A stretch of DNA of 64,000 nt, from NCBI RefSeq assembly GCF_900232825.1, contig NZ_OCTP01000011.1:310001-374000 (forward strand), written 5' to 3'. Source of the DNA: Anaerococcus sp. Marseille-P3625 (lineage in GTDB: Bacteria > Bacillota > Clostridia > Tissierellales > Peptoniphilaceae). Under the pieces are notes generated by a model. It saw only the letters and a program-made list of their open reading frames with translations, was not told the origin of the DNA and made no database searches. This document shows positions 1 to 13,211 of this stretch, in pieces (the first letter of the stretch is position 1; each line of letters starts with the position of its first letter). Position numbers and translations under genes: made by a program.

Positions 1-28
1 TTAAAAGAATTTACATTATCTATAATGT

Positions 29-412
29 TTAATTCATCCATGGTAAAATACCACCTAGACTTTGTATATTTTCACTTGTTTTATATAGGTCTAGCTCTTG
101 CAATCCACTTGTAAAGCTAGCTTTGTTTAGGTGCAAAATATATTCTCTATCCTCAATACTGTTAGGGTTTTTTATTATAATTCTTAAATAAGGATAATAG
201 CAAAATTTCAAAAAATCTGCATCTTCCCCATAATATCTTTTAACTGTTTCTGGATCTATAAATTCATTGGCATTTATATATCCTATAACTTTATAACCGT
301 TAATTTCTAAAATAAGTCTTTTCTTATCTAAGCCGCTTATTTCATATTCCCTAAAATCAATACTTAAATCGTTAGAAGATTTTAATTTTCCATAAATACT
401 AGAATAATCCAT
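29..412 (-). CDS. Hypothetical prophage protein, about 127 aa
   Basis: Function not recognised. It is the leftmost complete gene and reads leftward with the rest of the phage operon. An upstream ATG at 436 lacks a Shine-Dalgarno site; the ATG at 412 has a weak TAGG seven bases before it, so I chose that. The start lies inside the end of the preceding gene, so translation is probably coupled. The protein is soluble, rich in Tyr, Ile and Asn, with no signal or membrane segment. By position, just after the putative small terminase, it belongs to the packaging or head region. Confidence 0.55.
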   Translation of the reverse strand: MDYSSIYGKLKSSNDLSIDFREYEISGLDKKRLILEINGYKVIGYINANEFIDPETVKRYYGEDADFLKFCYYPYLRIIIKNPNSIEDREYILHLNKASFTSGLQELDLYKTSENIQSLGGILPWMN

Positions 413-734
413 CTTTAGGCCTATTTTCTTCATCATTAGTGGTGTTTAAATGTATCAACATTCTGCTATATAGTTCTTTAAGACTATCATCTTCGCTTAA
501 TCCCAATGTATCAAGTAATAAAGCTTTATTGTCTCCATCTCCACTATCCATGCTCTTTAACATTAAACTTATATTAATTAATCGGTTTAAATCTTCTACA
601 TTTTTTGCTCTAACTCTACCCTCTGAAACGTCAATAAAAAAATTAGTAATTAGGGTATCAACAGCACCATTAATTAATTTGTCTTTGCTATATTTAGTTT
701 TTAAATATTTGCTAGCTGAATTAATTCCCATCAT
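399..734 (-). CDS. Hypothetical prophage protein, 111 aa
   Basis: Function not recognised. The start overlaps the end of the putative terminase small subunit by 14 bases and is preceded by AAGGA at 8 bases. The predicted protein is soluble and helical with an acidic middle (SGDGDNK around residue 65). It is co-directional and overlapping on both sides, so it belongs to the packaging segment of the prophage. Confidence 0.65.
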   Translation of the reverse strand: MMGINSASKYLKTKYSKDKLINGAVDTLITNFFIDVSEGRVRAKNVEDLNRLINISLMLKSMDSGDGDNKALLLDTLGLSEDDSLKELYSRMLIHLNTTNDEENRPKDGLF

Positions 735-1425
735 CGCTAATTTCCTTTAGTTTTCTTTGTATTTCTTTTTCGCTTTTTCCTATACTTCGTAAATAATCTT
801 CATAATAGTCTGTGGCTTTGTAATATTCTTCCTCTACGTTTTCAAGTTCTGATAATACCTTTTGTTTTTCATCATCTGGTATATGAGTAAACATTGACTG
901 CAACAGTTGCATATATTTTTTTTCGGTGATTTCTTGCAAGTTTTTAATACCAAATTGAGTTAATCCTCCCAATGCTCCGTCTGTTAATTTATCTTTTAGT
1001 TCTATAGCTTTAAATACATTTTCTATAGTGATAAAATAGTCATTTTCTTTAATCAAGTTTTTTAGCTGATCTGCTCCGGATTGAATAACCATATCCAAAA
1101 ACTCTAAATCATTTTTAAGCTTGTTTGTTTCAGAACCTGGCTGGATTTCTTTTTCTTGTTCTTCTATGAGTTTAGCAATTGGTGCTTTGTTGATAAAATC
1201 CTTTAGGTTGTTTTCTTCGGCTGAATAAGCTTGTCTTATCTTCCTGTATTGGCCTAAATAGGCCCACGATATATTAAAACCCTGCTTATCTAGATATTCT
1301 TTTATAGATTGTATGCTGGTCTTAATATCAATCATTCTATTTACTTCATCAATATATGGACTATCCATTAAAAGTTTAATTTTAGGAGGTATTTTTTTCT
1401 TGCTGTCTATCTTTGTCTTTGCAAT
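721..1425 (-). CDS. Putative phage terminase small subunit-like protein, 234 aa, probable ATT start
   Basis: The N-terminus (about residues 20-60) looks like a helix-turn-helix (IDIKTSIQSIKEYLDKQGF, then SWAYLGQYRKIRQ), followed by long charged helices typical of small terminase oligomerisation regions. The first ATG (1368) has no Shine-Dalgarno site. The frame stays open upstream, and a perfect AGGAGG at 1435-1440 lies nine bases before an in-frame ATT at 1425. This start adds 19 basic residues beginning AKTKIDSKKKIPPK. The terminase assignment rests on the HTH plus coil layout and on position after the late-regulator-like gene. It could be another DNA-binding phage protein. The product name is tentative; the gene itself is well supported. 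Confidence 0.5.
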   Translation of the reverse strand: MAKTKIDSKKKIPPKIKLLMDSPYIDEVNRMIDIKTSIQSIKEYLDKQGFNISWAYLGQYRKIRQAYSAEENNLKDFINKAPIAKLIEEQEKEIQPGSETNKLKNDLEFLDMVIQSGADQLKNLIKENDYFITIENVFKAIELKDKLTDGALGGLTQFGIKNLQEITEKKYMQLLQSMFTHIPDDEKQKVLSELENVEEEYYKATDYYEDYLRSIGKSEKEIQRKLKEISDDGN

Positions 1426-1438
1426 TTTAAAACACCTC

Positions 1439-1765
1439 CTATTCTTCTAAATATATTGTCTTTATGTATAATTCTACTAAGGCTATGGCTCTTGCAAAAC
1501 CCTCTATAATGGCCTCTTCGTCTTTGCTTGAATATTGAGAAATAGCAAGTTCGGAGTTATCTTCTATAAAGTCATGCAAATTATTAATCATAGCTTTAGA
1601 TTCTTGTTCTATATCTTTATGTTCATAATCATAACTATAATTTGGGAAATAGTCCTTGACTGTGTAAGGCTTTTTAGTCTTAATAATATACAAGTTATTT
1701 TCTGATTTTTCGGTATCCATTATTTTATTATCATGATCAACTTTGCTGATATCTTTATGCTTCAT
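1439..1765 (-). CDS. Hypothetical prophage protein, 108 aa
   Basis: Function not recognised. The frame is open to a GTG at 1789, but the ATG at 1765 is preceded by AAGGAAAGAG at good spacing and is preferred. The protein is acidic and soluble, with a C-terminal helix rich in Glu, Ala and Ile. It ends a few bases before the Shine-Dalgarno site of the putative terminase gene and is the first gene left of the structured RNA terminator. Confidence 0.6.
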   Translation of the reverse strand: MKHKDISKVDHDNKIMDTEKSENNLYIIKTKKPYTVKDYFPNYSYDYEHKDIEQESKAMINNLHDFIEDNSELAISQYSSKDEEAIIEGFARAIALVELYIKTIYLEE

Positions 1766-1801
1766 AACTCTTTCCTTGCTATTTTTCACAAATTTATAAA
1801 T

Positions 1802-1828
1802 AAAAAAAGCTTTGAATAAATCAAAGCT
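1802..1828 (-). terminator. Intrinsic terminator of the prophage RNA
   Basis: On the - strand AGCTTTGA (1828-1821) pairs with TCAAAGCT, with a short TTTAT loop, followed by a run of seven or more T. It ends the structured RNA and would separate it from the packaging genes. Confidence 0.85.
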
Positions 1829-1957
1829 AGGGAAACTGACAAATGATGTAGTAGATCAAGGTCGGTAAAAATATTTCTTTCAGGAGTGTTTGGTGTAACA
1901 ATTCATTTAGGCTAGACGTAGGTACTAATGGGTAAAGTGACCTTGATACTACTATAC
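1802..1957 (-). ncRNA. Structured prophage RNA with its own promoter and terminator
   Basis: The about 185-base gap between two phage genes holds a clean RNA unit on the - strand. GTAGTATCAAGGTC (1952-1939) pairs along its whole length with 1863-1848, with one 2-base bulge: a 14-bp closing helix around a 75-base loop rich in ACC and containing CUCCU. A TATAAT at 1969-1964 puts the start just before this helix, and a terminator hairpin closes the unit. No ORF is present. I do not recognise the family. The CUCCU in the loop could face Shine-Dalgarno sequences, suggesting an antisense role, but that is inference. Confidence 0.65.
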
Positions 1958-1963
1958 AGTTAT

Positions 1964-1969
1964 ATTATA
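1964..1969 (-). promoter_or_regulatory. Minus-10 box of the prophage RNA promoter
   Basis: A perfect TATAAT on the - strand lies about seven bases before the 5' arm of the RNA closing helix. The -35 region is poor, so activation by a phage factor is possible; the gene immediately upstream encodes a late-regulator-like protein. Confidence 0.5.
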
Positions 1970-2009
1970 ATCCATTTTTATTTTTAATGTGTCTAATGAT
2001 TTTCTAATT

Positions 2010-2444
2010 TTACGCATCGCCAAACATTTTATAGCTTAATACCTTTAAGGCTTCATTGGCTATATTATATATCTGGGCTCTTTCATAATGATACTTGTCC
2101 ATCAACTCATATACTGCTCCTCTTTCTCCATAAGCATAAAGAGTCATTACTATATCTTTTTCTTTCTCATCAAGGTAGGTTAAAGCGTTTTCTACCATTC
2201 TAACTAGGGCCTTGTTAACTCTGTTATTGCGTTCTAACATAGCTCTCTTAGCTATATTATTTATATATGTATCGTCAAGATTTCTCCCTCCGCCTTGGAC
2301 AGATTCATCCCCATACCTAACTGTAATATTAGTCAATCGATCACTAATTTCGGTTATCTTGTCATCTATTTCTTTTGTAGTAGTTCTCACTTGCAAGTAT
2401 TTTTTTAAAATTTCCTTGCAAAGACATTTATAAAACTCTTGCAC
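2010..2444 (-). CDS. ArpU/RinA-like phage late transcription regulator, 144 aa
   Basis: The protein has the layout of the sigma-like late regulators (DUF1492/ArpU/RinA group): an N-terminal helical part, a middle with KITEISDRLTN, and a C-terminal sigma-region-4-like helix-turn-helix (ALTYLDEKEKDIVMTLY, then YHYERAQIYNIANEALK). These proteins typically activate packaging and structural genes. Position immediately before the packaging segment fits. The frame opens at an ATG at 2486 without a ribosome site; a GTG at 2444 follows GGAGGG by four bases and is the likelier start. It could also drive the weak promoter of the neighbouring RNA. Confidence 0.65.
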   Translation of the reverse strand: MQEFYKCLCKEILKKYLQVRTTTKEIDDKITEISDRLTNITVRYGDESVQGGGRNLDDTYINNIAKRAMLERNNRVNKALVRMVENALTYLDEKEKDIVMTLYAYGERGAVYELMDKYHYERAQIYNIANEALKVLSYKMFGDA

Positions 2445-2550
2445 TATCCCTCCGTATTTTGGAAATATTTTACCATAATAAAGCATATTGATAATTATGC
2501 CTAGTTTTTCTTCGATTTTGTGATTTTTTCACACACTTTTTTGTCGATTT

Positions 2551-2817
2551 TTAATCGTTTTCTTTTAGTATATCGCTCCAATTGACATAATCCAAAGTAA
2601 TACAATCAAGTTTTAATTCAAGTCTTTTTTTAAATCTTTCAAGTCTTACTGGGCCAAATCCAAACTCATCTTTTAGAGTTTCCACAACTAAAGCAAGAAA
2701 TCTTTCTACAAGAAAAACAGTTGTATCTGACTTAGCGATTCTTGCCATTTCTTCTTTGTAGACTCTTTCGGCTTTCATCTTTTTACCTATAGAAGTGCCA
2801 CCTTTGTATCTAAACAT
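2551..2817 (-). CDS. Conserved-looking phage protein, 88 aa
   Basis: Small basic protein of the kind found near the end of phage early operons, function not assigned. It has a strongly helical centre (TTVFLVERFLALVVETLKD) and a C-terminus rich in Arg, Lys and Leu. AAGAAAGG lies six bases before the ATG at 2817; an internal ATG at 2775 is a weaker alternative. It follows the methyltransferase by 57 bases. Confidence 0.65.
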   Translation of the reverse strand: MFRYKGGTSIGKKMKAERVYKEEMARIAKSDTTVFLVERFLALVVETLKDEFGFGPVRLERFKKRLELKLDCITLDYVNWSDILKEND

Positions 2818-2874
2818 TCTAAACCTTTCTTAATTGCTTTATTATGTAGATCAAAATTAATCACATAAATATTT

Positions 2875-3483
2875 TTATATCCACCTGATAACCGGTTCAC
2901 CTTTAAAGCCTTTTTCCCATATATACCAGCAATAGCAAACAGCACTTGACGGATAATTTGTAAAAACTCCATTTCTAACACAATTAGCCCTCTTGCTAAA
3001 TACATATACGTACTTAGGTGGATTTTCTTCAAATAGTTCTCTACGTTTTACACTTTCTAAAAACTGTATTTTAAGCAACATTGCTAGCCTTTTGCCATCA
3101 TCTATAATCTTAATAGAATGCTCTACAAACTCTTTAGCATACTTATAGGGTGGATTAGTAATTATATCTTCATGCCAACTTGTAGTTGTAAAAAAATCCA
3201 TCCCTCCTACTCCATATCCGCGATAATACAGATCCCTAGAAGTTACATTATATTTATTTTCTTCAAGTACTTTTGAAATATGGCCCTCACCACAACAAGG
3301 CTCTAATATGTTTTTATCAAAGCTTTCTACCTTCAATAGTTCTTCAACCGCTTGTGGATCAGTAGCATAATAATCGTGTTGTACTCTTGTAAAGTCTGAA
3401 TGATTGCTTGCCCCCATAATTACAAACATATTGTTATTAGGGTTATAATCCAGCGCGTTTTTATCTTTTTCTCTATCTATAAT
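2875..3483 (-). CDS. Phage adenine-type DNA methyltransferase, 202 aa, possible ATT start
   Basis: The core carries DYYATDPQAVEELL, an SAM-binding segment NILEPCCGEGHISKVLE, and the catalytic motif NPPY in DIITNPPYKYAKEF, as in N6-adenine methyltransferases. It probably modifies phage DNA against host restriction; specificity is not visible. ATGs at 3429 and 3417 lack ribosome sites. The frame is open upstream, and AGAGG lies eight bases before an in-frame ATT at 3483, which would start only 16 bases after dut and give an N-terminus IDREKDKNALDYNPNNN. The enzyme call is firm; the start is inferred. Confidence 0.8.
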   Translation of the reverse strand: MIDREKDKNALDYNPNNNMFVIMGASNHSDFTRVQHDYYATDPQAVEELLKVESFDKNILEPCCGEGHISKVLEENKYNVTSRDLYYRGYGVGGMDFFTTTSWHEDIITNPPYKYAKEFVEHSIKIIDDGKRLAMLLKIQFLESVKRRELFEENPPKYVYVFSKRANCVRNGVFTNYPSSAVCYCWYIWEKGFKGEPVIRWI

Positions 3484-3498
3484 CTTCTTTTCCTCTTT

Positions 3499-3903
3499 CT
3501 ATTTCTTGCCACTTGATCCAAAACCTTTATCACCTCGGCTGGTATCTAAATTTATTTCATCTACTTTACAAGGATAAACATTAATTTCTTGACCAAATAC
3601 TAACTGGGCTATCCTATCACCTTTTTTTATAACATAAGAGTTTTTACTCAAATTTGTAAGACAAACTTTAATCTCGCCCCTATATCCACTATCAACTAAA
3701 CCAGTATGACAAAGAACACCTTTAGATGATAAACCAGACCTAGCTCTAACATCTGCATAATAACCCTTATCAAATTCAAAAAATAATCCGGTTTCTATCA
3801 GTCTTGTATCACCAGATAAAAGAACAACTTCTTTATCAGCCCTTATATCCCAGCCCTGGTCTCCTTTATCTTTGCTTAATTCATATGGTGCTTTATATCT
3901 CAT
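3499..3903 (-). CDS. dut: dUTP diphosphatase, 134 aa
   Basis: Hydrolyses dUTP to dUMP and pyrophosphate, keeping uracil out of phage DNA. All five motifs of trimeric dUTPases are visible: GWDIRA near residue 20, ARSGLSSKGV near 54, GLVDSGYRGEIKV near 68 with the catalytic Asp and Tyr, KGDRIAQLVF near 94, and the C-terminal arm SRGDKGFGSSG. Full length for the family. GAGGAAATAAAAGA precedes the ATG. It overlaps the upstream gene by four bases and sits with nucleotide and DNA modification genes. Confidence 0.95.
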   Translation of the reverse strand: MRYKAPYELSKDKGDQGWDIRADKEVVLLSGDTRLIETGLFFEFDKGYYADVRARSGLSSKGVLCHTGLVDSGYRGEIKVCLTNLSKNSYVIKKGDRIAQLVFGQEINVYPCKVDEINLDTSRGDKGFGSSGKK

Positions 3904-4292
3904 TCTTTTATTTCCTCTAAATTCATATTTTCAAGTCTTATTGTATGAAATTCTCTAGGTAGGCTTTTATCTTTCCAACGGACATATGCAAGTTGTGCAT
4001 AGATTCCATTTGTAGCTTCTACCGTTTTTCTAATTCTATATGTGCCCAATTCCTCTACTATAAATTCTGGACTATCCACTTCTACTACCGTATTTTTATC
4101 TACCTTGCACCAATACTCTAGGTCTATGTGGTCATCTCCTACATCTACTATTGGTCCTACAATGTAGCCTTCTATATAATAGCCATATACATAATTTTCT
4201 TCGTCTATATAGCCTTTTTCCTTACCTTCTATTACAAAGTCGGTATCTTTTATAAGTTTATCTATATCTAGGATTTTTGCTTTAAACATCAT
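3900..4292 (-). CDS. Phage protein of unknown function, 130 aa
   Basis: The frame opens at 4322, but GGAGGAAAATT directly precedes the ATG at 4292 (the next codon is also ATG), which I take as the start. Soluble, acidic, beta-rich, with a repeated Tyr-Gly pattern (YGYYIEGYIVGPIVDVGDD). It recalls YopX-like phage proteins in general make-up but lacks their hallmark segment, so no function is assigned. It overlaps dut by four bases. Confidence 0.7.
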   Translation of the reverse strand: MMFKAKILDIDKLIKDTDFVIEGKEKGYIDEENYVYGYYIEGYIVGPIVDVGDDHIDLEYWCKVDKNTVVEVDSPEFIVEELGTYRIRKTVEATNGIYAQLAYVRWKDKSLPREFHTIRLENMNLEEIKE

Positions 4293-4359
4293 AATTTTCC
4301 TCCGTATCATTGAAATATTCACCCATTACAAGTCTTCCATTTAAAACCTTGGCTATCAT
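4282..4359 (-). CDS. Possible 25-aa leader or small phage protein
   Basis: The ORF starts MIAKVLNGRLVMGEY, has AAGAAGG six bases upstream, and ends overlapping the start of the next gene by 11 bases. An overlapping ORF in another frame, starting about 50 bases upstream, has no ribosome site. It may be a real tiny gene or the remnant of a longer one. Confidence 0.4.
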   Translation of the reverse strand: MIAKVLNGRLVMGEYFNDTEENYDV

Positions 4360-4448
4360 TTCTTGCCTTCTTCATATCAGCCAACTCAAAGCTTTCTTTA
4401 AAGAAAACTGCAATCATAAAAAAGTTAGCAATTTAAGCATATATAAAT

Positions 4449-4721
4449 TCATAGCTCGCTAATCTCTCTTATAGCTCTCTCTTTAATTCTTAAAATAGCT
4501 TCATTTTCTCTCTTATCATAATTTTTAAACCATTTGTTTTTAAATTCCTTTAGACTTTCTCTATAAGTTTCTTCTCCATAATCACGAGACAACCACCATT
4601 CCAAATCATGAGTTAGTTCAGCAAAATCTTTTACAAATTCATTCATGAACTCATCTTGCATTTCACCAACTAAATTATTTTCAATGGTATAACAAATATA
4701 ACTTAAACATCCTCCACTCAT
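4449..4721 (-). CDS. Conserved phage protein of the MSGG type, 90 aa
   Basis: Begins MSGGCLSYICY and has an aromatic, acidic middle (DLEWWLSRDYGEETY). Phage proteins with this MSGG opening are common in Firmicute phages, but I know no proven function. GGAGGGATAAATA precedes the ATG. The start shares one base with the stop of the preceding 30-aa membrane gene, so translation is coupled. Confidence 0.75.
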   Translation of the reverse strand: MSGGCLSYICYTIENNLVGEMQDEFMNEFVKDFAELTHDLEWWLSRDYGEETYRESLKEFKNKWFKNYDKRENEAILRIKERAIREISEL

Positions 4722-4813
4722 TATTTATCCCTCCATATTTTTGTTATCAATATGATTGCATTACCTATCAAGCTTCCTATAACAACCCAGAATATTGTAT
4801 CTAATATATTCAT
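4721..4813 (-). CDS. 30-aa single-pass membrane peptide
   Basis: Too short for ordinary gene calling. It begins MNILDTIFWVVIGSLIG, continues as one hydrophobic helix, and ends in a basic tail. The start overlaps the stop of the upstream gene as ATGA, and its stop overlaps the start of the downstream gene as TAATG; GGAGGTGGGAGA lies just upstream. This double overlap makes it very likely to be translated. No function is known; by position it is an early phage gene. Confidence 0.75.
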   Translation of the reverse strand: MNILDTIFWVVIGSLIGNAIILITKIWRDK

Positions 4814-5004
4814 TCTCCCACCTCCGTCTTATCATATAAATCTTGAAAATCCTCTGCACTAATCTTGTATCTATCGTTATTGTTGCCATCAACAAACACG
4901 ATGCTACCATCCTTGAATATCTCTAAACCAAAATTAAACTCCTTTAGTAGACTTGTAAAACTGCACAATATCAAAGACATTTGATTTTTCCTTTGTATGT
5001 TCAT
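4810..5004 (-). CDS. Hypothetical phage protein, 64 aa
   Basis: Function not recognised. Starts in an ATGA overlap with the upstream gene and is followed by another ATGA overlap. The C-terminal half (GSIVFVDGNNNDRYKISAED) suggests a small beta-hairpin domain. Confidence 0.7.
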   Translation of the reverse strand: MNIQRKNQMSLILCSFTSLLKEFNFGLEIFKDGSIVFVDGNNNDRYKISAEDFQDLYDKTEVGE

Positions 5005-5177
5005 CTCTTTACGATCCTTCTTGTATATTCATGTCCTACTAAGTAAGTCACTAAATCTTCTTTATTTTCAGCAACTGCTAACTGCTTCCACCTATAGGTC
5101 TGGCACGTTCTATTTTTTGTTAGTTCAGTATTTATAATATAAGGCTCTTTGTACTCTAAAACATAATTAAATTTCAT
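5001..5177 (-). CDS. Hypothetical phage protein, 58 aa
   Basis: Function not recognised. The frame opens at 5192, but GGGGAG lies seven bases before the ATG at 5177, giving a start MKFNYVLEYKE. Basic C-terminus (YTRRIVKR). It overlaps its downstream neighbour by four bases. Confidence 0.65.
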   Translation of the reverse strand: MKFNYVLEYKEPYIINTELTKNRTCQTYRWKQLAVAENKEDLVTYLVGHEYTRRIVKR

Positions 5178-5179
5178 AT

Positions 5180-5374
5180 TTAATCTCCCCATTCCAAAGT
5201 CACAAAAACAGTATCAGTTTCATCTAAATAATTAGCATCTGACAAATCTAAAGGTGTATAAATTTCTTCACTACATCCTAAATTTCCGTTATATATTTCC
5301 TCAAACAATTCAATTTTTAATTCACTTTCTGGATCAAAATTATCGAACCATTCTAAAAAATCTTTTACTTTCAT
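5180..5374 (-). CDS. Small phage protein of the MKVKD family, 64 aa
   Basis: Opens MKVKDFLEWFDNFDPESEL, a pattern shared with the gene just upstream (5378-5542) and with 12977-13138: a basic MKxKD start, a short amphipathic helix, then an acidic FDxE segment. I take these as one small paralogous family of unknown function. The rest is acidic and beta-like. Confidence 0.7.
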   Translation of the reverse strand: MKVKDFLEWFDNFDPESELKIELFEEIYNGNLGCSEEIYTPLDLSDANYLDETDTVFVTLEWGD

Positions 5375-5377
5375 AAA

Positions 5378-5542
5378 TCAATACCTTTTAATTTCTTCCA
5401 AATTCAAATAAGGAGCTACGTCATAATCTACTTTAAAATCACATTCATACTCGATATCGTTTTCTTTATCATAAAAATAAGCTAAAACATCATCTTCATC
5501 GTCAAAATAAGATAATTTTTTAATCAAATCTTTAACTTTCAT
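5378..5542 (-). CDS. Small phage protein of the MKVKD family, 54 aa
   Basis: Below the usual length cut-off but clearly placed: starts three bases after the YopX stop, ends three bases before the next gene, and opens MKVKDLIKKLSYFDDEDDV like its downstream neighbour. A GAGG at the end of yopX serves as ribosome site. Very acidic centre. Function unknown. Confidence 0.75.
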   Translation of the reverse strand: MKVKDLIKKLSYFDDEDDVLAYFYDKENDIEYECDFKVDYDVAPYLNLEEIKRY

Positions 5543-5545
5543 TCT

Positions 5546-5926
5546 TTAAACCTCATCTAACAATTCTTTATCTTCGTAAATATTGCCAATAATCGAAATC
5601 TGATACTTATCTAGAAAACTGCTCAAAACTAAAGTAGTTCTAGTATTAGCACCACTTTTATAAGTTGCTACAGTATTCCCATCTTCATGTCTCACTTCTA
5701 CAAAACCTCTTGATCTAGTTTTTAAGATATCTCCCTCGTAAATCTCATTACCATTTTTGTCTTTCAAACCTGTGGATTGCATTAAACTTATATCGTTTGT
5801 AATAAACATATATTCACAGTCTCCATCTCCGTTAAAATCAACTAAAATGCTGTTTTCATTTACAACACCAATGTTATAAATCATTCTTTTGTATTTATTA
5901 AAATATGCTCTAAATTTAGGTATCAT
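5546..5926 (-). CDS. YopX family phage protein, 126 aa
   Basis: Recognised from the family hallmarks PKFRAYFNK at the N-terminus, STGLKDKNGNEIYEGDIL near residue 72, and IIGNIYED near the C-terminus. YopX proteins are widespread in Firmicute phages as beta-rich oligomers; their function is unknown. GGAGG precedes the ATG, which overlaps the upstream stop by four bases. Confidence 0.9.
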   Translation of the reverse strand: MIPKFRAYFNKYKRMIYNIGVVNENSILVDFNGDGDCEYMFITNDISLMQSTGLKDKNGNEIYEGDILKTRSRGFVEVRHEDGNTVATYKSGANTRTTLVLSSFLDKYQISIIGNIYEDKELLDEV

Positions 5927-6348
5927 TCCTCAACCTCCACCAACTCAAAATCAGCTAAATCAGTATCAAACTTTTTCTTGATTTCTTCAATTTCTTTAAG
6001 GGTAAATGTGGTTTTATAACCGTTATTTTCAGTACTGTGACTCAAATAATACTTACCTGTCGGAAAACAAAGTGTTAGATTATTTTCATTTTCATATGCC
6101 ATCCACCTATGCTTCAAATAAAACTTCTTCTCTTCCTCTCTATCCTCTGGAGGTGTAGAAGCATACTCAACAAGCAAGTCAAATAGTGGTTTTTTTACCC
6201 CTCCAAAGTCAGTATTTATTGTAAAAGGCTCATCAATGCTAATATAACATCCATTAAAATAATCACCATCAATATTGATGTATCCGTTTTTAATATCTAC
6301 ATCTAACCCCAACTCTTCAACTCTTTTTATAAATTCCTTAGTCTTCAT
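5923..6348 (-). CDS. Hypothetical phage protein, 141 aa
   Basis: Starts MKTKEFIKRVEELGLDVDIK with GGAGTTGAGAA upstream. The N-terminal region looks like a small alpha-beta domain; the centre is acidic (PPEDREEEKKF) and the C-terminus helical. Function not recognised. It overlaps both neighbours, so it sits within one transcript. Confidence 0.75.
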   Translation of the reverse strand: MKTKEFIKRVEELGLDVDIKNGYINIDGDYFNGCYISIDEPFTINTDFGGVKKPLFDLLVEYASTPPEDREEEKKFYLKHRWMAYENENNLTLCFPTGKYYLSHSTENNGYKTTFTLKEIEEIKKKFDTDLADFELVEVEE

Positions 6349-6868
6349 TTCTCAACTCCACCAGTTCATCTATAATATTTTCCAAATCTTCTATTTCACT
6401 TGTATCAGCACAGTCTTCTTGATAAGTATCCCAAGCTACTCTCAAAGCATTAATAATAACATCCAACTGACTTTCCCTAAGATGCAAACAATAACAACCT
6501 TCGTTTATATTTTGTGCTTTAATTATTTGATCTACCAAACTCAAACATTCTTCTAGTGTATAATATTGATCTTCACGAAATGGATTATCATCTGCTTGAT
6601 TACAATCAAAACCAAGAACCCACTCACCTACTTCGTAAAGCCTACCAGAATAAGTTAACCCACCATGAACATCAAACAAATCTACTAAATCATTATAATC
6701 CACACCATAGTAAGGATGTGTTTTAGGAATAACAACATATCCACAATACCAAAAAGTATTCACATCAAACGAATAAGGCATAAAATGCGGGTTGTCACTC
6801 CAATCTATTCTTTTAACAATAACTTCATAACCTAAGTATTTTCTTCTTATTACAATTCCACTCTTCAT
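6338..6868 (-). CDS. Phage protein with HGG/GFDC motifs, 176 aa
   Basis: Contains GYVVIP, VHGGLTYSG and WVLGFDCNQADDNP in that order, then a helix with EECLSLVDQII. The same series occurs in the 208-aa protein at 7717-8343, so the two are diverged paralogs. The invariant His, Asp, Cys and Asn residues suggest a metal site or hydrolase centre, but no catalytic function is known to me. The C-terminal 60 residues (LRESQLDVIINALRVAWDTY) are specific to this copy. GGGGGAGA precedes the ATG. Confidence 0.75.
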   Translation of the reverse strand: MKSGIVIRRKYLGYEVIVKRIDWSDNPHFMPYSFDVNTFWYCGYVVIPKTHPYYGVDYNDLVDLFDVHGGLTYSGRLYEVGEWVLGFDCNQADDNPFREDQYYTLEECLSLVDQIIKAQNINEGCYCLHLRESQLDVIINALRVAWDTYQEDCADTSEIEDLENIIDELVELRNED

Positions 6869-6887
6869 ATTCTCCCCCTAACAAAAC

Positions 6888-7235
6888 TTACATAATCTCC
6901 CTAAAATCATAATCTGTATATTTTTGCAAAAATAATCTTTTTTTTAATAAATATACACGAGTTTTTGTAGCTACTGACTTCACTTCTTCCACTATCATCT
7001 TTCCAGACTCACAATCTTGATACATAAAATCGGCGATATAGGAAATCTTTGGCAAAGTTTCTTTGTCTGTCCTAATAGTCGGGATAAGCTCAAACTTAGG
7101 TTGTAGCTGTAAATTCTTGATTTTTCCTGCCCTTTCCAAAAGTTTAAGCTCACCATATCTGTGCGACTCCTTGATACTATCAAACTTATGACCATCAACA
7201 ACAACTTTTTTGTTCTTGTACTTCCTATAGCTCAA
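6888..7235 (-). CDS. DUF1064 family protein, predicted nuclease fold, 115 aa, TTG start
   Basis: Matches the DUF1064 pattern: KYKNKKVVVDGHKFDSIKE near the start, a helix ending LERAGKIKNLQLQPKFEL, then YIADFMY and IVEEVKS, which resemble the D and ExK residues of PD-(D/E)XK nucleases. Such proteins sit in phage replication or recombination modules and may resolve DNA structures. The start is a TTG in a TTGA overlap with the ssb stop, with GGGGTG eight bases before. Confidence 0.8.
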   Translation of the reverse strand: MSYRKYKNKKVVVDGHKFDSIKESHRYGELKLLERAGKIKNLQLQPKFELIPTIRTDKETLPKISYIADFMYQDCESGKMIVEEVKSVATKTRVYLLKKRLFLQKYTDYDFREIM

Positions 7236-7723
7236 AACGGAATCACCCCATTGTCAAACTCTTCAAAATCATCCCCAAAGAAATCATCGTTATTTTGCTC
7301 TGTATGCGTTTTATTTTCATTAGCCATATATTTATATGTCTTTTCGTTATTTTTCGCTCCCGCGTAATTCTGCGAAGAATTTGAGCTATTTAAGAACTCC
7401 ACCCTATCCGCAATAACCGTAGTGGTATAAACTTTCTTGCCTGTTTCCCTATCGTCATAAGATCCAGTTTCAATTCTCCCTTCAATTGCACACAAACTGC
7501 CCTTTTTTAGATATCTGCTAGCATTTTCTGCCTGCTTGCCCCAAACTACAACTTTTGGAAAATCAGCGGTAGGATAGGAATTAGCTTCCGCCTCCTCCCT
7601 TTTCTCCCTAGTCATCTGCCTATCACAAGCAAGTGTGAAATTTGCCACCGCTTTATTTGCCTGCGTATATCGTAAATCTATATCTCTAACCAATCTTCCG
7701 ATTAAGATCACCTTATTTAGCAT
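7232..7723 (-). CDS. ssb: Single-stranded DNA-binding protein, 163 aa
   Basis: N-terminal OB fold (LNKVILIGRLVRDIDLRYTQ, VANFTLACDR, FPKVVVWGKQAENASRYLKKG, ALEGR-like IEGRIETGSYDD), a low-complexity Asn-rich linker, and an acidic tip DDFEEFDNGVIPF of the kind that recruits partner proteins. Coats single strands during phage replication and RecT-type recombination. AGGAGTAGG precedes the ATG. It overlaps both neighbours. Confidence 0.95.
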   Translation of the reverse strand: MLNKVILIGRLVRDIDLRYTQANKAVANFTLACDRQMTREKREEAEANSYPTADFPKVVVWGKQAENASRYLKKGSLCAIEGRIETGSYDDRETGKKVYTTTVIADRVEFLNSSNSSQNYAGAKNNEKTYKYMANENKTHTEQNNDDFFGDDFEEFDNGVIPF

Positions 7724-8343
7724 AAATTCCTACTCCTATTTTCCAAATAAAAATTAACAACCGAATCAGCCTCTGCCCGAATTTCACAAATCTTTAAAAC
7801 TTCAATCCATTCGCCCTCGTGGTTTTCCTCAATAACCCAAAAGACTTTATCGCTCAATACATGCTTGACAACAAGCCTAGACTTGCTATCAATATTCCTA
7901 ACTAGATCAACTTCTTTGTTTTTATTATTCACTTTGCAATCATCAAGATTTATTAATTGGTCTATAAGCTTTTTGCATTCATTTTCTACGTATCTTTGGT
8001 TGCAATGTACAGGATTATCCCCTGCATGGTTACAATCAAAACCAAGTACATATCCATCTTCAAGATCCATAACCTCTAAATCCATAATTTTACTCAGATA
8101 ATCCGAAAAAGTTATTCCTCCATGAACTTCTATGTCGTACTCTTTTTCAAATTCTCCATAAAACTTATCAACTAATTCGTGGTCATCTGGTAAAATCACA
8201 TATCCGTTATACCAATCAGTCGACATAAGAGTTCCTTCTAACATTTCTCTAAAAATATTGTCGTATTCTTTATCTCGGTAAATGTGTTTTATAAAAAACA
8301 TATATCCCTTGTAAGTATCTACTCTAGCTAATTTATCAATCAT
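7717..8343 (-). CDS. Phage protein with HGG/GFDC motifs, longer paralog, 208 aa
   Basis: Shares NGYVILP, VHGGITFSD and YVLGFDCNHAGDNP with the protein at 6338-6868. The C-terminal 65 residues differ: SRLVVKHVLSDKVFWVIEE resembles a small beta-sheet binding domain. Function unknown. TTAGGAGAAATAA precedes the ATG. Two copies within 1.5 kb of one early operon argue for a duplicated phage function rather than chance. Confidence 0.75.
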   Translation of the reverse strand: MIDKLARVDTYKGYMFFIKHIYRDKEYDNIFREMLEGTLMSTDWYNGYVILPDDHELVDKFYGEFEKEYDIEVHGGITFSDYLSKIMDLEVMDLEDGYVLGFDCNHAGDNPVHCNQRYVENECKKLIDQLINLDDCKVNNKNKEVDLVRNIDSKSRLVVKHVLSDKVFWVIEENHEGEWIEVLKICEIRAEADSVVNFYLENRSRNLC

Positions 8344-9325
8344 TTATTTCTCCTAACTCCTTTTTGTTTTCCAACATCTTTTCAAATCTCTTTTTCCTTG
8401 CTACTTCTGCGTATGTTATCTGCTCCGAATTTACAGCTTGACCTGTATATGACTTGTCTAAGTAATTGCCCTCCATAACTTTCACAAAGTTATTAGGTCG
8501 GATAAACCAGTCAAAAGTAATTACAAAGTCATTAACATATCCTTTGAGAAAAGTACTGTCATCAATCGACTTAATTGTATCTAAAACCTTGTCTATTCCG
8601 TTTTCGTTAATCCTTGCTTTGGTCATCTTATATCTATCCGTACCAGCATTTAGGGACTGCATCTTAGGTATGTTTACATCAAGCTTATTCCAGGAATTAA
8701 TGATTTGACTCTTCCACGTATCGGTAGACGAATCGGGCAACGTATCGATATCTGTTTCATCTTGAGGATTGTTGAAATCATCACATTCTTCCGAATCGTT
8801 ACACGAATCGGTAGGCGAATAAGTATTAGTATAAGTATTAGTATAAGTATTAGTATAAGTATATATAGATTTCCTTTTCTCAATTTCATCTTCAAAAAGC
8901 TTCATAATCTTTTTATCGATATCTCTTTTTGATAATTGCCACCAACTTTTCATACTTTTGTAAACAACCATAATTAGATCAAGGCTATCTACTCCTTCAA
9001 GTGTTCTACTCGCCATTTCTTCTATAGGTTTTCCTCCACTATTTATTGTGTATTTTAACGAATGGTGTATTGCAATTTCTTGATTTTCATAATTATAAGA
9101 AATTTTTTTATACTTGTTCATAAATCTATCAACTAATGTTCTTATAGCTTCAGGACTATAACCAATTTCAAAAGCCATAAGCTTAATCGGTAACTTAAAA
9201 ATTCCTATCGCATTACCTCTCGGGCAAGTTAAGAGATACATCATAAACAATTTATCCTCGGGAGAAAACTCATCTATGATCTGTTCGTCATTCCAAAAAT
9301 CACGTTCAACAATTGTTTTGCTCAT
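8336..9325 (-). CDS. Phage replisome organizer / DnaD-like replication protein, 329 aa
   Basis: The N-terminus is the winged-helix domain of phage replisome organizers (FWNDEQIIDEFSPEDKLFMM, YLLTCP, then IGYSPEAIRTLVDRF). A low-complexity linker from about residue 150 contains three repeats of the tetrapeptide YTNT and then an acidic Asp/Ser stretch; the C-terminal 110 residues are helical, as in origin-binding or helicase-loading proteins. It probably binds the phage origin and loads the helicase. Neighbours are HNH, recT and ssb genes. AGAGGCAGGAT precedes the ATG. Confidence 0.8.
   Translation of the reverse strand: MSKTIVERDFWNDEQIIDEFSPEDKLFMMYLLTCPRGNAIGIFKLPIKLMAFEIGYSPEAIRTLVDRFMNKYKKISYNYENQEIAIHHSLKYTINSGGKPIEEMASRTLEGVDSLDLIMVVYKSMKSWWQLSKRDIDKKIMKLFEDEIEKRKSIYTYTNTYTNTYTNTYSPTDSCNDSEECDDFNNPQDETDIDTLPDSSTDTWKSQIINSWNKLDVNIPKMQSLNAGTDRYKMTKARINENGIDKVLDTIKSIDDSTFLKGYVNDFVITFDWFIRPNNFVKVMEGNYLDKSYTGQAVNSEQITYAEVARKKRFEKMLENKKELGEIND
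8821..8862. repeat. 12-bp tandem repeat inside the replication gene
   Basis: AAGTATTAGTAT occurs three times in direct succession (8821-8856), followed by a partial copy. In the gene it encodes the repeating YTNT linker. The length is a multiple of three, so copy-number change would lengthen the linker without shifting frame. Shorter imperfect repeats around CGAATCGGTAG lie just left of it. Confidence 0.9.
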
Positions 9326-10064
9326 ATCCTGCCTCTATCTCGATTATGTATTCCATAATCTCTTTAAATTCTGTCCAATTCTTAACCGTCTTTGCAACCT
9401 CGGTTAAGTAGTCTTTATCAATGTATTTAGATGCTCTTTTTAGATAATTAATTCCTACTGGTTTGTTATAATAATAAAGCCTATTGTTCAAGATTCCGCT
9501 TATATAATATAAATCTGTATCTATTGTGGTTTCTGGATTTGCTACATAATAAGCAATTCTTGGTATCATATCAAAGGCTTTATAAACATTTGGATACTGA
9601 ATTATTGATCTATCCATAGCTTCTAACAAGTCTTTTAGCTTATATTTCTTAACCCACTTTTTAACTTGCTTTTTCCCATGTTCCTTGACTCCATAGCCTG
9701 TTGCTTTTTCAAACTCTGCGCAAAGTATTTCTGCTACATCATCATCTAAACTTTTTAATTCTTCGCGCCATTCTAGCATCATGTCTATTTGATTTCGCTT
9801 TTCTTGTAATTCTTCTAGTTCTTTTTGTTGTTTTGTTACCATTGAATCATCTGATAATTTCCTATCTGATTTTCCTCTATTGCAATCTCTGCATGAAGTT
9901 ATTAAGTTCAGTAAATCATTAGTACCGCCTTTACTTACCGGATTTATATGGTCTACCTCCAAAATAACGTCTGGTGCTGTTTTTCCACAATATTGGCAAG
10001 TAAAAGAGTCCCTCTTAAAAACTTCAAACCTTAATTTCTTACTAATTGTTTTTCTATTTGCCAT
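9306..10064 (-). CDS. HNH endonuclease-domain phage protein, 252 aa
   Basis: The first 75 residues are an HNH nuclease with zinc ribbon: FKRDSFTCQYCGK, the catalytic His in LEVDHINPVSKGG, and CRDCNRGKSDR. A helical linker and a 150-residue helical C-terminus of unknown role follow. Such fused HNH proteins commonly sit just before DnaD-like genes in Firmicute phages; they may act in replication rather than as homing enzymes. It overlaps the replisome gene by 20 bases. Start ATG at 10064 follows a GAGGTGGTG stretch at longer than ideal distance. Confidence 0.8.
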   Translation of the reverse strand: MANRKTISKKLRFEVFKRDSFTCQYCGKTAPDVILEVDHINPVSKGGTNDLLNLITSCRDCNRGKSDRKLSDDSMVTKQQKELEELQEKRNQIDMMLEWREELKSLDDDVAEILCAEFEKATGYGVKEHGKKQVKKWVKKYKLKDLLEAMDRSIIQYPNVYKAFDMIPRIAYYVANPETTIDTDLYYISGILNNRLYYYNKPVGINYLKRASKYIDKDYLTEVAKTVKNWTEFKEIMEYIIEIEAGYEQNNC

Positions 10065-10124
10065 CTAGCACACCACCACCTCAATACGAAAATCATCATC
10101 TTTTTTACAAAAATTATTCATCAA

Positions 10125-11051
10125 TTATTCATTTTCACCAACTGGCACAAAGTCATCAGAAAAGAAATCATCTTCTAAAATTTCTCCCGTATCTTTGTCT
10201 ACTTTTTTACTCTTGCTATCGTCATCGGATACTTGCAAAGTCTTTGGATCTTTCGCCTTTTCTTCCTCGCTAACAACTTCATAGTCAATATCGTAAGTAA
10301 TTCCGCCAGTTTCTTTATCAAAAACTGAAGCTTTAAACACTTGATTGTCAAAGGCTATAGCTTGACCCAACTCTGGCTTATCGATAGCTTTAGGTGCGTA
10401 TTTTAAAACTTGTATCAAGCAAGATTTTTTCGCCATTGCATCAAAATTGCTTGTCCAAGGTCCAGAACTATATGACTTAGAAAATGTTCTTCCGTAGTTT
10501 TCCGCATCTTCCTTACTCATATAAAAGCTATCTCTGCCACCCTCTTTAGTTTCATAAACAGCGTAGTATCCTATAACCTCTCCGCTTTCTCCTCGAATAA
10601 CTGGCTTATGAACGATCTCACCTGTACCATAATCAATGGAAAACTTGTCATTATCGTGAACCTCTTTAGCAGTAATTCTTTTAAATTGACCCGTATTGTG
10701 TGCTAACTTTAAAAGTCCTTGATAGCCGATTTGAAAATTAACCGTTGTGATACCTGTTTTTTTATTTTCGTAAGGGATAAGATAAGCCTCCCCAAGTGGA
10801 GTATTAAACTCAAGCCCCAATTGTGCGGAGTTCATAACCGCTGCAATAAGAGATTGAGGGCTACAAGCTAGTAGCTTCGGATTGCTATTTATAGCAGTTA
10901 ATGATGTTCTTATAAACTTTTCAGTTGGTAAATATTGAGGTAAAGCATTCTTGATCTCGCCTTTCATACTCATTAGTAAATTTCTTACATTGTCCTGTGG
11001 TGCTGGTTTACCATTTGTCTTTTTGCTTAATGCTTGTTTTGCGTTAGTCAT
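10125..11051 (-). CDS. recT: RecT single-strand annealing protein, 308 aa
   Basis: Typical RecT: N-terminal NVRNLLMSMKGEIKNALP, LTAINSNPKLLACSPQSL, the core NSAQLGLEFNTPLGEAYLIP, and VNFQIGYQGLLKLAHNTGQ. Anneals complementary strands at ends made by the exonuclease encoded two genes upstream. The acidic C-terminus (DDFFSDDF) resembles an SSB tip. AGGAGGATTAC precedes the ATG. The partner exonuclease is split, which matters for whether the pair works. Confidence 0.95.
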   Translation of the reverse strand: MTNAKQALSKKTNGKPAPQDNVRNLLMSMKGEIKNALPQYLPTEKFIRTSLTAINSNPKLLACSPQSLIAAVMNSAQLGLEFNTPLGEAYLIPYENKKTGITTVNFQIGYQGLLKLAHNTGQFKRITAKEVHDNDKFSIDYGTGEIVHKPVIRGESGEVIGYYAVYETKEGGRDSFYMSKEDAENYGRTFSKSYSSGPWTSNFDAMAKKSCLIQVLKYAPKAIDKPELGQAIAFDNQVFKASVFDKETGGITYDIDYEVVSEEEKAKDPKTLQVSDDDSKSKKVDKDTGEILEDDFFSDDFVPVGENE

Positions 11052-11060
11052 GTAATCCTC

Positions 11061-11300
11061 CTATAAACCCTCGTTTTGTTCTTCTAATACTGATATTTTT
11101 TTCTCGAGTTTTTCTGTCATTTGATAGTATTTGTCCCTTTGTTCTCTAGCTAAATCTAACTGCCCTAAAATCTCATGTTGTTTATTTATGAGCTGAGCCT
11201 TTTCAACTCTCAGCCTAGTAATTTCACTTTTTAATGTCTCAATATAATCTTTTGTTATGTCACTTAAAACATCAGCATAATTTTTGTTTCTATTACTCAC
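11061..11300 (-). CDS. Coiled-coil phage protein, 79 aa, GTG start
   Basis: Almost wholly helical with heptad-like Leu spacing (YIETLKSEITRLRVEKAQL, then a second helix to KKISVLEEQ). AAGGAG lies seven bases before the GTG. It lies between the exonuclease C-terminal piece and recT, so a role as a recombination accessory is possible but unproven. Confidence 0.7.
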   Translation of the reverse strand: MSNRNKNYADVLSDITKDYIETLKSEITRLRVEKAQLINKQHEILGQLDLAREQRDKYYQMTEKLEKKISVLEEQNEGL

Positions 11301-11706
11301 TTACAATCTCCTTAATAAAAAATCTTCTGCTTTCACTTTCTTTTCCATACTTGTCATAAATTTCTGGTGCTTCTTTTTTTATCCTCTTAGTATCAAGCCT
11401 TACAGAAATTGACGGCTTGTAACTTACAGTAAAATAACTTGTTTCTCCGTAATTATTATCAGCAAGCTGGATCTTCAAATCTTGCTCGAATTTTCTATTC
11501 CTATCTTCCAAATCTTTGATCAAATCTTTATTTGCCTTGTATATTTCATAAGAATTTACATCAACATCTAGCTTTATACTATCCTCAATACCACCCTTAA
11601 ATCGTGCCTTTAAAGCATCATCAAAAGCTACTGACCCATCAGGATCTGGCATTAGGTCTTTTTCTACATACTCAGTCCAAAACTCAATTTCCTTATCCCT
11701 AAGCAT
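11293..11706 (-). CDS. C-terminal part of a YqaJ-type exonuclease, separated by an in-frame stop, 137 aa
   Basis: It continues the frame of the gene at 11722-12234 after a single TAA and four codons. The content matches the C-terminal part of YqaJ-family exonucleases: EIEFWTEYVEKDLMPDPDGS, a helical segment, and a final KKEAPEIYDKYGKESESRRF. None of the nuclease residues lie here. Its own ATG has AAGGTG 11 bases upstream, so separate expression is possible, as is stop readthrough. Confidence 0.7.
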   Translation of the reverse strand: MLRDKEIEFWTEYVEKDLMPDPDGSVAFDDALKARFKGGIEDSIKLDVDVNSYEIYKANKDLIKDLEDRNRKFEQDLKIQLADNNYGETSYFTVSYKPSISVRLDTKRIKKEAPEIYDKYGKESESRRFFIKEIVSE

Positions 11707-11721
11707 CTTTATAGTTTCACC

Positions 11722-12234
11722 TTACCAATCAATCTCACGGATAACAAATTCACTACCAAATGCCAAACAAGCCAAATAACACTTTTTAGCACCAGTCACA
11801 CTCATATAATGCAAGCATTGAAGCTCGTACTCTATTGGAATTGCTCCATCTTCCCACTTATATCGGTTATAAGGGCTGGTAGTTTTACACTCAAGGATTG
11901 CATCTTCTCCCACTACTCTTCTGTCAATATCAGCAATCAGAAAAGGATAATCCACATCGCACATCATAAAATTATCACGACGCACTTTTTTACCAGTCGC
12001 CTCAGTAAATCTTCCAGCAACATAATCTTCAAAATCTCGCCCTTGTCTTAAAGCCTCCGATTCATTATCGGAAATCTCAACCTTTGACGTCTTTTCCAAA
12101 AATAGCTGTGCTTGACTTTTCCAATGTGACAAACCACACGCAGCCGCCCCATCAGAACCGCCAATCCCTAATTGTCTAAGCTTTAGCCAATCCTCCCTGC
12201 TAAGCTTTGCAACATTAGCAATAGCATTAGTCAT
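11722..12234 (-). CDS. YqaJ/lambda-exonuclease-type recombinase, N-terminal catalytic part, 170 aa
   Basis: All recognisable catalytic elements are present: LRQLGIGGSDGAAACGLS near residue 20, PFLIADIDRRV near 105 with the metal-binding Asp, ILECKTTSP near 118 with the ExK pair, and YELQCLHYM near 143. These enzymes degrade one strand of duplex DNA to feed RecT. Relatives are roughly twice this length; here the frame hits a TAA after FVIREIDW and resumes as the next gene. Either a nonsense mutation or a two-piece enzyme. GAGGG precedes the ATG, which overlaps the upstream gene. Confidence 0.8.
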   Translation of the reverse strand: MTNAIANVAKLSREDWLKLRQLGIGGSDGAAACGLSHWKSQAQLFLEKTSKVEISDNESEALRQGRDFEDYVAGRFTEATGKKVRRDNFMMCDVDYPFLIADIDRRVVGEDAILECKTTSPYNRYKWEDGAIPIEYELQCLHYMSVTGAKKCYLACLAFGSEFVIREIDW

Positions 12235-12500
12235 AGCAAGCCCTCCTCATACTGTAAATTAAGAAGTCTATCATCTTCCACATCTTGACAATAAAGCATA
12301 TCGCAATACTCTTGGTCTTCATCATCAAGCTTTCCAATCTTTATGTTGTTGATCTCAACTTCTTCATTGATCTTGTTTGCCTTAAACATATACTGCAAAA
12401 CTGCCTCATGCTCGCTCTCAGAAAAGTCTTCAACAAACTCCTTATATGGGATATCCACCTCATAATCTTTATAAATACACTTTGTAAAAGTTACTCTCAT
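12231..12500 (-). CDS. Hypothetical phage protein, 89 aa
   Basis: Function not recognised. Acidic, soluble; contains DIPYKEFVEDFSESEHEAV and an acidic C-terminus. AGGAGAGAGT precedes the ATG, and it overlaps the exonuclease start by four bases, so the two are coupled. Confidence 0.65.
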   Translation of the reverse strand: MRVTFTKCIYKDYEVDIPYKEFVEDFSESEHEAVLQYMFKANKINEEVEINNIKIGKLDDEDQEYCDMLYCQDVEDDRLLNLQYEEGLL

Positions 12501-12508
12501 ACTCTCTC

Positions 12509-12691
12509 CTACTTATCTAAATAATTTTTCAACTTAAAACGCCTTTTAATCTCTAATTTAAGCAATAAAATCTTATCTTCCCTATCCTTTAAATCCTTAT
12601 TACTAGTCAAACACTCAAGTAGAGTAGTAAGACCATCATCAGAAATAGTCATAATCTTTCTTCTAAACTCATCAAAATCGTAGCAATTCAC
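12509..12691 (-). CDS. Small helical phage protein, 60 aa, GTG start
   Basis: Function not recognised. Starts with a GTG after AAAGGATATTTAAA. Helical, with a basic C-terminus (KLEIKRRFKLKNYLDK). It is separated from the next upstream gene by an 85-base gap that holds an inverted repeat. Confidence 0.6.
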   Translation of the reverse strand: MNCYDFDEFRRKIMTISDDGLTTLLECLTSNKDLKDREDKILLLKLEIKRRFKLKNYLDK

Positions 12692-12740
12692 TTTAAATAT
12701 CCTTTACAAATGGTATAGTAATAGAGAATATTTTTTGTTC

Positions 12741-12778
12741 AATCTCGCTAAATTCCTACATTCAAGCGAGATTTTTTT
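12741..12778 (+). terminator. Terminator-like hairpin facing against the operon
   Basis: AATCTCGC (12741-12748) pairs perfectly with GCGAGATT (12766-12773), followed on the + strand by a run of seven T. On the - strand, the direction of all surrounding genes, there is no T-run. It could end antisense transcription entering the early operon, or act as a processing or regulatory stem for the operon mRNA. Confidence 0.6.
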
Positions 12779-12965
12779 ATGCCAAGCACTCATCATAGAT
12801 CTCACAAACTTTTTTAAAATTTTCTTTTCTTCCTCTAAGGTTCATTTTTCTGATCTCTTCACTTCTATAAAAATTCTCCCTTGCCTCCTTTTGCTTTCTT
12901 TCTTCTCTCAAAACTCTTCTTTTATCCAAACTTGCAAATAATTCGTTAATTCTAATACTCATCAT
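12777..12965 (-). CDS. Small basic helical phage protein, 62 aa
   Basis: Function not recognised. Highly charged single helix (LDKRRVLREERKQKEARENF). AAGGGAGG lies five bases before the ATG. It follows the 53-aa gene directly. Confidence 0.65.
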   Translation of the reverse strand: MMSIRINELFASLDKRRVLREERKQKEARENFYRSEEIRKMNLRGRKENFKKVCEIYDECLA

Positions 12966-12976
12966 AAATTCCTCCC

Positions 12977-13138
12977 TTACTCATCTTTAGAAAATATATA
13001 AATTTTATCAGCTTCATTATCAGCAAATAAACCTTTTATTTCTACCACATAATCTGCTCCATCAACTCTTATAAGACTTTCTATTTCCTCATCTTCATCG
13101 TAAATGTCTAATAAGTTTTTTAGATCCTTTATTTTCAT
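12977..13138 (-). CDS. Small acidic phage protein of the MKVKD family, 53 aa
   Basis: Opens MKIKDLKNLLDIYDEDEEI, like the genes at 5180-5374 and 5378-5542. GGGGGTG precedes the ATG, which overlaps the upstream 22-aa gene as ATGA. Function unknown. Confidence 0.7.
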   Translation of the reverse strand: MKIKDLKNLLDIYDEDEEIESLIRVDGADYVVEIKGLFADNEADKIYIFSKDE

Positions 13139-13203
13139 ATTTGCACCCCCATATCTTTTCTGATACGGTCACCTATCTTTACTTTTTCAATATCAATTAG
13201 CAT
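13135..13203 (-). CDS. 22-aa phage peptide
   Basis: A tiny ORF opening MLIDIEKVKIGDRIRKD, with a perfect AGGAGG four bases before the ATG and an ATGA overlap with the next gene. The sequence resembles the start of a larger protein, so it is either a genuine peptide that couples translation or a truncated remnant. Confidence 0.6.
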   Translation of the reverse strand: MLIDIEKVKIGDRIRKDMGVQI

Positions 13204-13211
13204 TTATCCTC

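Follow-up and report, generated by a model that had tools for sequence, protein, structure and literature searches.

A predicted structured leader RNA between a putative late promoter and an intrinsic terminator at the early/late boundary of an Anaerococcus prophage

The gap between the regulator gene and the late operon

The DNA analysed here (the window, 64,000 nucleotides from Anaerococcus sp. Marseille-P3625) carries near its start the early/late boundary of a prophage, where a gene for an ArpU/Ltr-type transcription regulator is followed, across a short gap, by the first genes of the late operon (Table 1). Profile searches related the regulator to phrog_36, phrog_248 and phrog_8834 (PHROGs, E up to 0.01), and its best Pfam match (E up to 0.1) was DUF1492, with a score of 20.0 that lies under the cut-off of 21.5. 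Neither search returned a Q family, and we therefore did not file the locus as a Q system. A Foldseek search gave no match below E=0.38; the lack of a Q structure among the matches listed proves nothing. An ArpU/DUF1492-like protein with a helix-turn-helix (HTH) at the early/late boundary is what is expected beside an Ltr/ArpU-regulated late promoter. The first late gene, for which the ORF list gives a longer version with a GTG start at 1789, is followed by a relative of SPO1 gp36.2 (Herelleviridae) just ahead of the probable small terminase gene (terS), and the large terminase gene comes next, beyond the window (GpA_ATPase, E=2.2e-23). In the original prediction, the RNA lay between the regulator and a small terminase; the regulator is indeed its neighbour, whereas two genes separate it from the weak terS match.

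The gap encodes a predicted RNA on the minus strand. The first base of its putative -10 box, TATAAT, is the 41st after the regulator stop codon. This box has no properly spaced -35 element, TAGACA (1995-1990) being 20 nt off; an alternative pairing on the same strand, TAGACA-17-GATTAT, scores 9/12. The 5' end of the RNA is predicted to pair with the part preceding the terminator in a closing helix of 15 bp with a one-base bulge and a 75-nt loop, the computed pair probabilities being 0.93-1.0 for the inner nine base pairs and 0.70-0.96 for the outer six. A closing helix had thus been correctly predicted, but its size, given as 14 bp with a 2-base bulge, needed revision. In the terminator, the hairpin spans 1828-1808 and the U run 1808-1802, with the first U inside the stem; alone, this modest, A/U-rich hairpin reaches -8.9 kcal/mol. 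As in a late leader of the lambda type, a promoter, recognised by sequence match only, stands between the regulator gene and the late operon, and a terminator stands between this promoter and the first late gene, with no second -10-like box (5 of 6) between the terminator and the late start codon at 1765. The order of elements in the sequence is therefore -10 box after the regulator gene, foldable leader, terminator and first late gene.

Table 1. Features of the late-operon boundary, in window coordinates
Feature	Coordinates	Strand	Basis or remark
ArpU/Ltr-type late transcription regulator	2010..2486	-	two long helices; HTH at the C terminus, similar to sigma region 4
Candidate regulator boxes ATTAGAAA / ATTAGACA / ATTAAAAA, an imperfect direct repeat in three copies	1981..2008	-	weak, AT-rich
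TATAAT, putative late-promoter -10 box	1964..1969	-	sequence match only
Leader RNA, ~156 nt	1802..1957	-	both ends predicted (start ~1957)
Closing helix, 5' arm, bulged U at 1948	1939..1954	-	fold and 5'-3' pairing test
C/A-rich 75-nt loop with CUCCU	1864..1938	-	fold
Closing helix, 3' arm	1849..1863	-	fold and 5'-3' pairing test
Intrinsic terminator: 8-bp stem, 5-nt loop, seven U	1802..1828	-	terminator scan
First late gene, without assigned function	1439..1765	-	ATG at 1765, SD-like AAGGAAAG
Late-operon gene, phrog_1007, related to SPO1 gp36.2	721..1368	-	profile match
Probable small terminase	399..734	-	phrog_1063, E=3.5e-4 (weak)

The RNA had been described as free-standing. The terminator of this RNA, however, lies on the way into the late operon and, because the first late start codon lies only 36 nt past the U-tract, the RNA is best read as an aborted late leader. 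Other parts of that description are borne out: on the minus strand, a structured RNA with a promoter-like box and a terminator lies beside an ArpU-like regulator at the early/late boundary, and its predicted length agrees with the ~155 bases without an ORF proposed before, 1800-1960 containing no minus-strand ORF of >=25 codons (the longest has 24 codons, starting from TTG).

Fold statistics gave a z-score of -4.0 for the minus strand, with none of 200 shuffles equally good, and of -4.9 for the plus strand, as inverted repeats do; since both strands fold well, energy alone cannot pick the strand. Pairing of the 5' end with the 3' half had an energy of -21.6 kcal/mol, compared with a mean of -7.1 in shuffles (p=0.001, the lowest value that 1000 shuffles allow). 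The RNA had been assigned to no known family, in keeping with an Rfam scan of the window that returned nothing at gathering score; permissive scans of 1780-2020 and of 14 relatives gave weak matches only, all below gathering score, the one in 1780-2020 being on the plus strand (E=2). A nucleotide search with the RNA retrieved only matches of 22-30 nt from 50,697 phage records and, from 61 genomes, three identical copies, all in its own genome; the other matches listed in the latter search covered <=55 query bases (best E=5e-4). Counting against these assignments, across 1-6000 of the window promoter-like matches (30 vs 32.1 in shuffles) and terminator-like matches on both strands (1 vs 1.6) showed no excess. 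The best promoter-like match of this region, TTGATA-17-TATAAT (11/12, 1943-1971), is on the plus strand, overlaps a helix arm and the -10 region and points antisense into the regulator gene; it could be a source of RNA antisense to the regulator. We also noticed by eye that the 5' arm might alternatively pair with the terminator's own arm; this switch was not seen in two long leaders of other loci (L182 and L152) and was discarded.

Terminators downstream of ArpU/RinA/Ltr-type regulator genes

We examined the gaps after ArpU-like genes in the genus, the family and named phages, which gave 57 loci, 45 of them non-redundant. Excluded from this first set were 15 phrog_36 loci that by eye are not phage late boundaries (L212, L218, L221, L224-L232, L235, L237, L239), L196, L202 and L206 together with repeats of places already included, Javan191 (L247), whose next gene is unannotated, and phage stretches missing the gap (L250-L252); L158, L159 and L161 were added, L160 was left out, and L186, L189 and L191 were retained. 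A sense intrinsic terminator lay within 260 nt of the regulator stop codon at 33 of the 45 loci, as compared to 7 of 900 shuffles under the same rule. The density of sense terminators was 2.93 per kb in this 260-nt bin vs 0.1-0.73 per kb further downstream, and the controls yielded 2 terminators in 76 kb upstream and 1 antisense terminator in the same bin. In the first set, most ArpU/RinA/Ltr loci thus have a terminator recognisable in the sequence at this position.

A second set was drawn from IMG/VR with the rule unchanged, a first-set protein being the query for 65 of the 67 loci. Setting aside 20 loci like the first set and 26 like each other, with none dropped by kind, left 21 new non-redundant loci, and 10 of these carried the terminator (44/67 overall); the corresponding controls gave no sense terminator across the 25 kb upstream, but 4 antisense ones in the same bin. 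The strict scan accordingly missed 12/45 loci of the first set and 11/21 of the second. Inspected by eye, these 11 comprised 3 of a non-phage type, 2 without a gap, four with imperfect hairpins or T-runs (L383, L391, L409, L414), and L408 and L411, which seem to be without a terminator.

A -10-like hexamer precedes the terminator in 32/33 loci, which is weak evidence in such AT-rich DNA; at L189, and perhaps at L186 and L191, the terminator is not simply downstream of the promoter-like box. In 17/32 loci the next start codon is <=60 nt from the terminator, so that at these loci transcription of the late operon has to run across it. Many of the homologous leaders are short (~25-65 nt).

Two features of individual loci came up during inspection. 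In the late promoters of L241, L243, L246, L249, L236 and L240, two or three -10-like hexamers are closely spaced (TATTATTAGAAT in L241 and L243, an extra TAGAAT in L246 and L249); the second hexamers of several relatives were seen by eye, without statistics. Lambda pR' has a sigma-dependent pause site, and by analogy these clusters could mark such a site. In L192 and L195, ~100-120 nt past the regulator stop codon, TACCGCGG occurs within GGTACCGCGG (L192) or AGTACCGCGG (L195) and adjoins a possible long-range hairpin. We take this motif to resemble that of T-boxes, but a T-box reading of GGTACCGCGG in these two loci found no Rfam match and was dropped.

Among named phages, phi13 has a terminator between its P23 TATAAT and the late genes (gap positions 64-88, ~26-50 nt downstream of the likely start); its repeats, too, are upstream of the TATA box. 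According to the main text of PMC13123087, P23 is a late promoter that depends on Ltr, needs the upstream repeats and is essential for phage particles, and it was located at a start site predicted from earlier TSS mapping. Given that P23 is essential and that a terminator-like sequence lies downstream, essential late transcription must cross a terminator-like sequence in phi13. The same order recurs in the rinA-terS gap of phi11, with a 10-bp hairpin and six T, whereas in TP901-1 and A118 the terminator-like sites lie deeper in the gap, emerge under a looser rule only and count as misses among the 45 loci. The window thus resembles phi13 and phi11 in gene position, in the late operon downstream and in a terminator at the same place, and resembles phi13 also in a TATA box, possibly with activator repeats upstream, the candidate repeats of the window being imperfect and AT-rich. 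It differs in its longer, folded leader, and Ltr, RinA, ArpU and Alt are described as promoter activators. The words 'terminator' and 'antitermination' occur 0 times in the main text of PMC13123087, and the tabulation of ArpU-family and terS genes in PMC3952083 carries no remark on the gap between them.

The nearest relative is a syntenic prophage found in Peptoniphilus ovalis (L342, which shares its contig position with G151), whose TerL is 65% identical and whose gp36.2-like gene is 37% identical to that of the window. A homologue of the first late gene stands in the same place (37% identity over 81 residues), and the regulator is a different protein, sigma-region-4-like. The L342 gap contains direct repeats (a period of 20 bp as computed, ~10 bp by eye), a TATAAT and a 79-nt predicted RNA that ends in a terminator ahead of the same first late gene. 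This leader is short, unstructured and unpaired between its ends, and the closing helix and loop are absent. Judged by sequence, the layout is therefore conserved between the window and L342, whereas the closing helix is not.

We next considered whether the helix recurs elsewhere, using 16 hand-chosen loci; 5 leaders were too short, and of the 11 tested, five had >=90 nt before the terminator. In four of these five long leaders (window, L182, L152, L238), the first 24 nt pair with the part before the terminator, with p=0.001 for the window and p-values for L182 (0.006), L238 (0.003) and L152 (0.08) that are optimistic, as these three had been spotted by eye before testing. The fifth, L259, showed no 5'-3' pairing (p=0.87). 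Among the six shorter leaders only L190 (p=0.02) fell below 0.1, and no such pairing was found in phi11 (p=0.83), L200 (0.69) and some others of the 11 tested. The four helix-bearing leaders cannot be aligned by eye, so what recurs is a shape, and this is not covariation. Their loops vary: CCUCCU is present in the L182 loop, and no more than UUCCU in the L152 loop. Conservation of the helix, which the original prediction had proposed as a check, thus gave a mixed outcome: the layout is kept, and three other long leaders of dissimilar sequence have such a helix, but L342 lacks it.

A probable late leader and its alternatives

In phage lambda, the late leader is made up of the promoter pR', the 6S RNA (194 nt) and the terminator tR', with Q as the antiterminator. 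The window is similar in that a putative late promoter directly follows the regulator gene and is succeeded by a leader, an intrinsic terminator and, beyond it, the late genes; it differs in its regulator, which is ArpU/DUF1492-like, gave no Q-family match in the profile searches run, and is assigned antitermination here by inference. On balance, we lean towards reading the window RNA as a promoter-proximal leader of the late operon, similar to pR'/6S/tR', with the regulator probably helping polymerase past the terminator; among the roles suggested originally, we thus favour that in the late switch.

Host polymerase coming from the early operon, or initiating weakly at the window promoter, would stop at the terminator and release the ~156-nt RNA. 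Accumulated regulator would then sit just upstream of the -10 box and recruit polymerase in place of a -35 element, as suggested by the resemblance of its C-terminal domain to sigma region 4. Polymerases started under its control would pass the terminator into the late genes more often than others. In the least certain step, the closing helix would bring the 5' end near the terminator and stabilise the released RNA. The put RNA of HK022 offers a further analogy, as a structured nascent leader could itself affect read-through of the terminator; put differs in having two stem-loops and in acting without a phage protein.

By inference from this analogy, the regulators would work like lambda Q without being relatives of Q. 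We tentatively extend the idea to the whole group: it is possible that the ArpU/RinA/Ltr regulators, mostly of Gram-positive phages, constitute a further class of processive antiterminators that load at the late promoter and take polymerase past a terminator ~25-150 nt downstream, structured leaders such as that of the window tuning or reporting the step. If the layout means the same as in lambdoid phages, both initiation and termination would govern the late switch. Such dual control would cover a large group of phages, including the well-studied staphylococcal ones, and reporter fusions ending before the terminator would miss half of the late switch.

The same leader could also operate without antitermination, the terminator blocking read-through from early transcription, the strong activated promoter leaking past it and the RNA being a by-product. 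This account, which we regard as somewhat unlikely, agrees with the description of ArpU/RinA/Ltr-class regulators as promoter activators in the main text of PMC13123087. Moreover, the A/U-rich, modest stem of the window terminator makes leakage plausible, and the titles retrieved from the literature on RinA or ArpU with antitermination are unrelated to the subject, none dealing with the promoter-terminator layout. A terminator that serves only to stop early read-through, however, should stand ahead of the late promoter, whereas in 32/33 loci it comes after a -10-like box, a count whose weight is reduced by the AT-rich DNA.

Under both this account and the late-leader reading with antitermination, the closing helix could be an inverted repeat that arose by chance, only the promoter and terminator of an otherwise ordinary leader being of importance. 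Absence of the helix from L342 and L259 fits such a view, but the pairing statistics of the window and of three long leaders of unrelated sequence (p=0.001, and 0.003, 0.006 and 0.08) make it unlikely.

We consider it quite improbable that the RNA is a trans-acting sRNA whose CUCCU loop targets ribosome-binding sites on host or phage messages by base pairing, read-through into the late operon being incidental. The stable closed fold, the RNA's own promoter-like box and terminator, and the CCUCCU in the L182 loop would suit this function; against it, loop sequences differ among leaders, L342 has no such loop and many homologous leaders span only ~25-65 nt. Pairing with Shine-Dalgarno sequences had been suggested before, and we found no evidence for it in the one duplex tried, that with the nearest start site, of the next gene, which reached only -7.1 kcal/mol. 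An element acting as DNA, either a packaging site of the cos or pac kind or a protein-binding inverted repeat, might be suspected from the nearby terminase genes and from the folding of both strands, but is extremely unlikely: on one strand a promoter-like box immediately precedes it and a terminator immediately follows, inspection by eye shows no GC-rich core, and the layout is shared with loci that have no visible inverted repeat; for the packaging role once proposed we found no evidence.

R1 elements and a probable prophage array

In sister prophages of the genus, we observed a second structured RNA, R1, after the late terminator (L185, L190, L193, L194, L198, L199, L200, L201, L204). Its ~25-bp helix encloses ~40-125 nt, and most copies have CUCC immediately inside the 5' arm; in several loci the element stands directly before the start of a terS, HNH or ParB-like gene (genes named by eye). 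In the R1 alignment, 13/24 pairs are changed on both sides and 97.7% of cells pair; none of 500 shuffles reached the covariation score. The R1 model further finds six loci outside its build (L179, L180, L186, L187, L189, L191), and in each of them the strand of the regulator gives the higher score. A search of 249 genomes of the order located R1 in at least 11, each of them one of the 31 that belong to the genus; this number is a lower bound, as the filters were strict and two further genomes of the genus are the source of L186 and L187. No Rfam match was obtained in the loci scanned. As a structured RNA, R1 has stronger support than the one in the window.

R1 and the window RNA are alike in having a long-range helix, with CUCC inside it in most R1 copies, and in lying between late promoter and late genes; they differ in that R1 comes after the terminator. 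Membership of the window RNA in R1 was rejected, as the covariance model, taken up to E=5, did not hit 1800-1970, its only match in the window being 53035-53171 (E=0.76).

The prophage itself occurs in three tandem copies, arranged head to tail, each of 62,841 bp and sharing a 17-bp core, the array occupying 1-19226 of the window and G000:C1:140687-329226 of the contig. Differences between the copies are confined to two short clusters of sites. This triplication may be a real triple lysogen or an effect of assembly, and the clustering of the differences favours a real array. At 11720-12149, the window differs from the preceding copy at eight single bases, six of them within 43 bases; the eight sit at the two ends of the ORF 11722-12234, where the first copy differs from that of the window as well. 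From its sequence, this cluster looks like a recombination or conversion tract.
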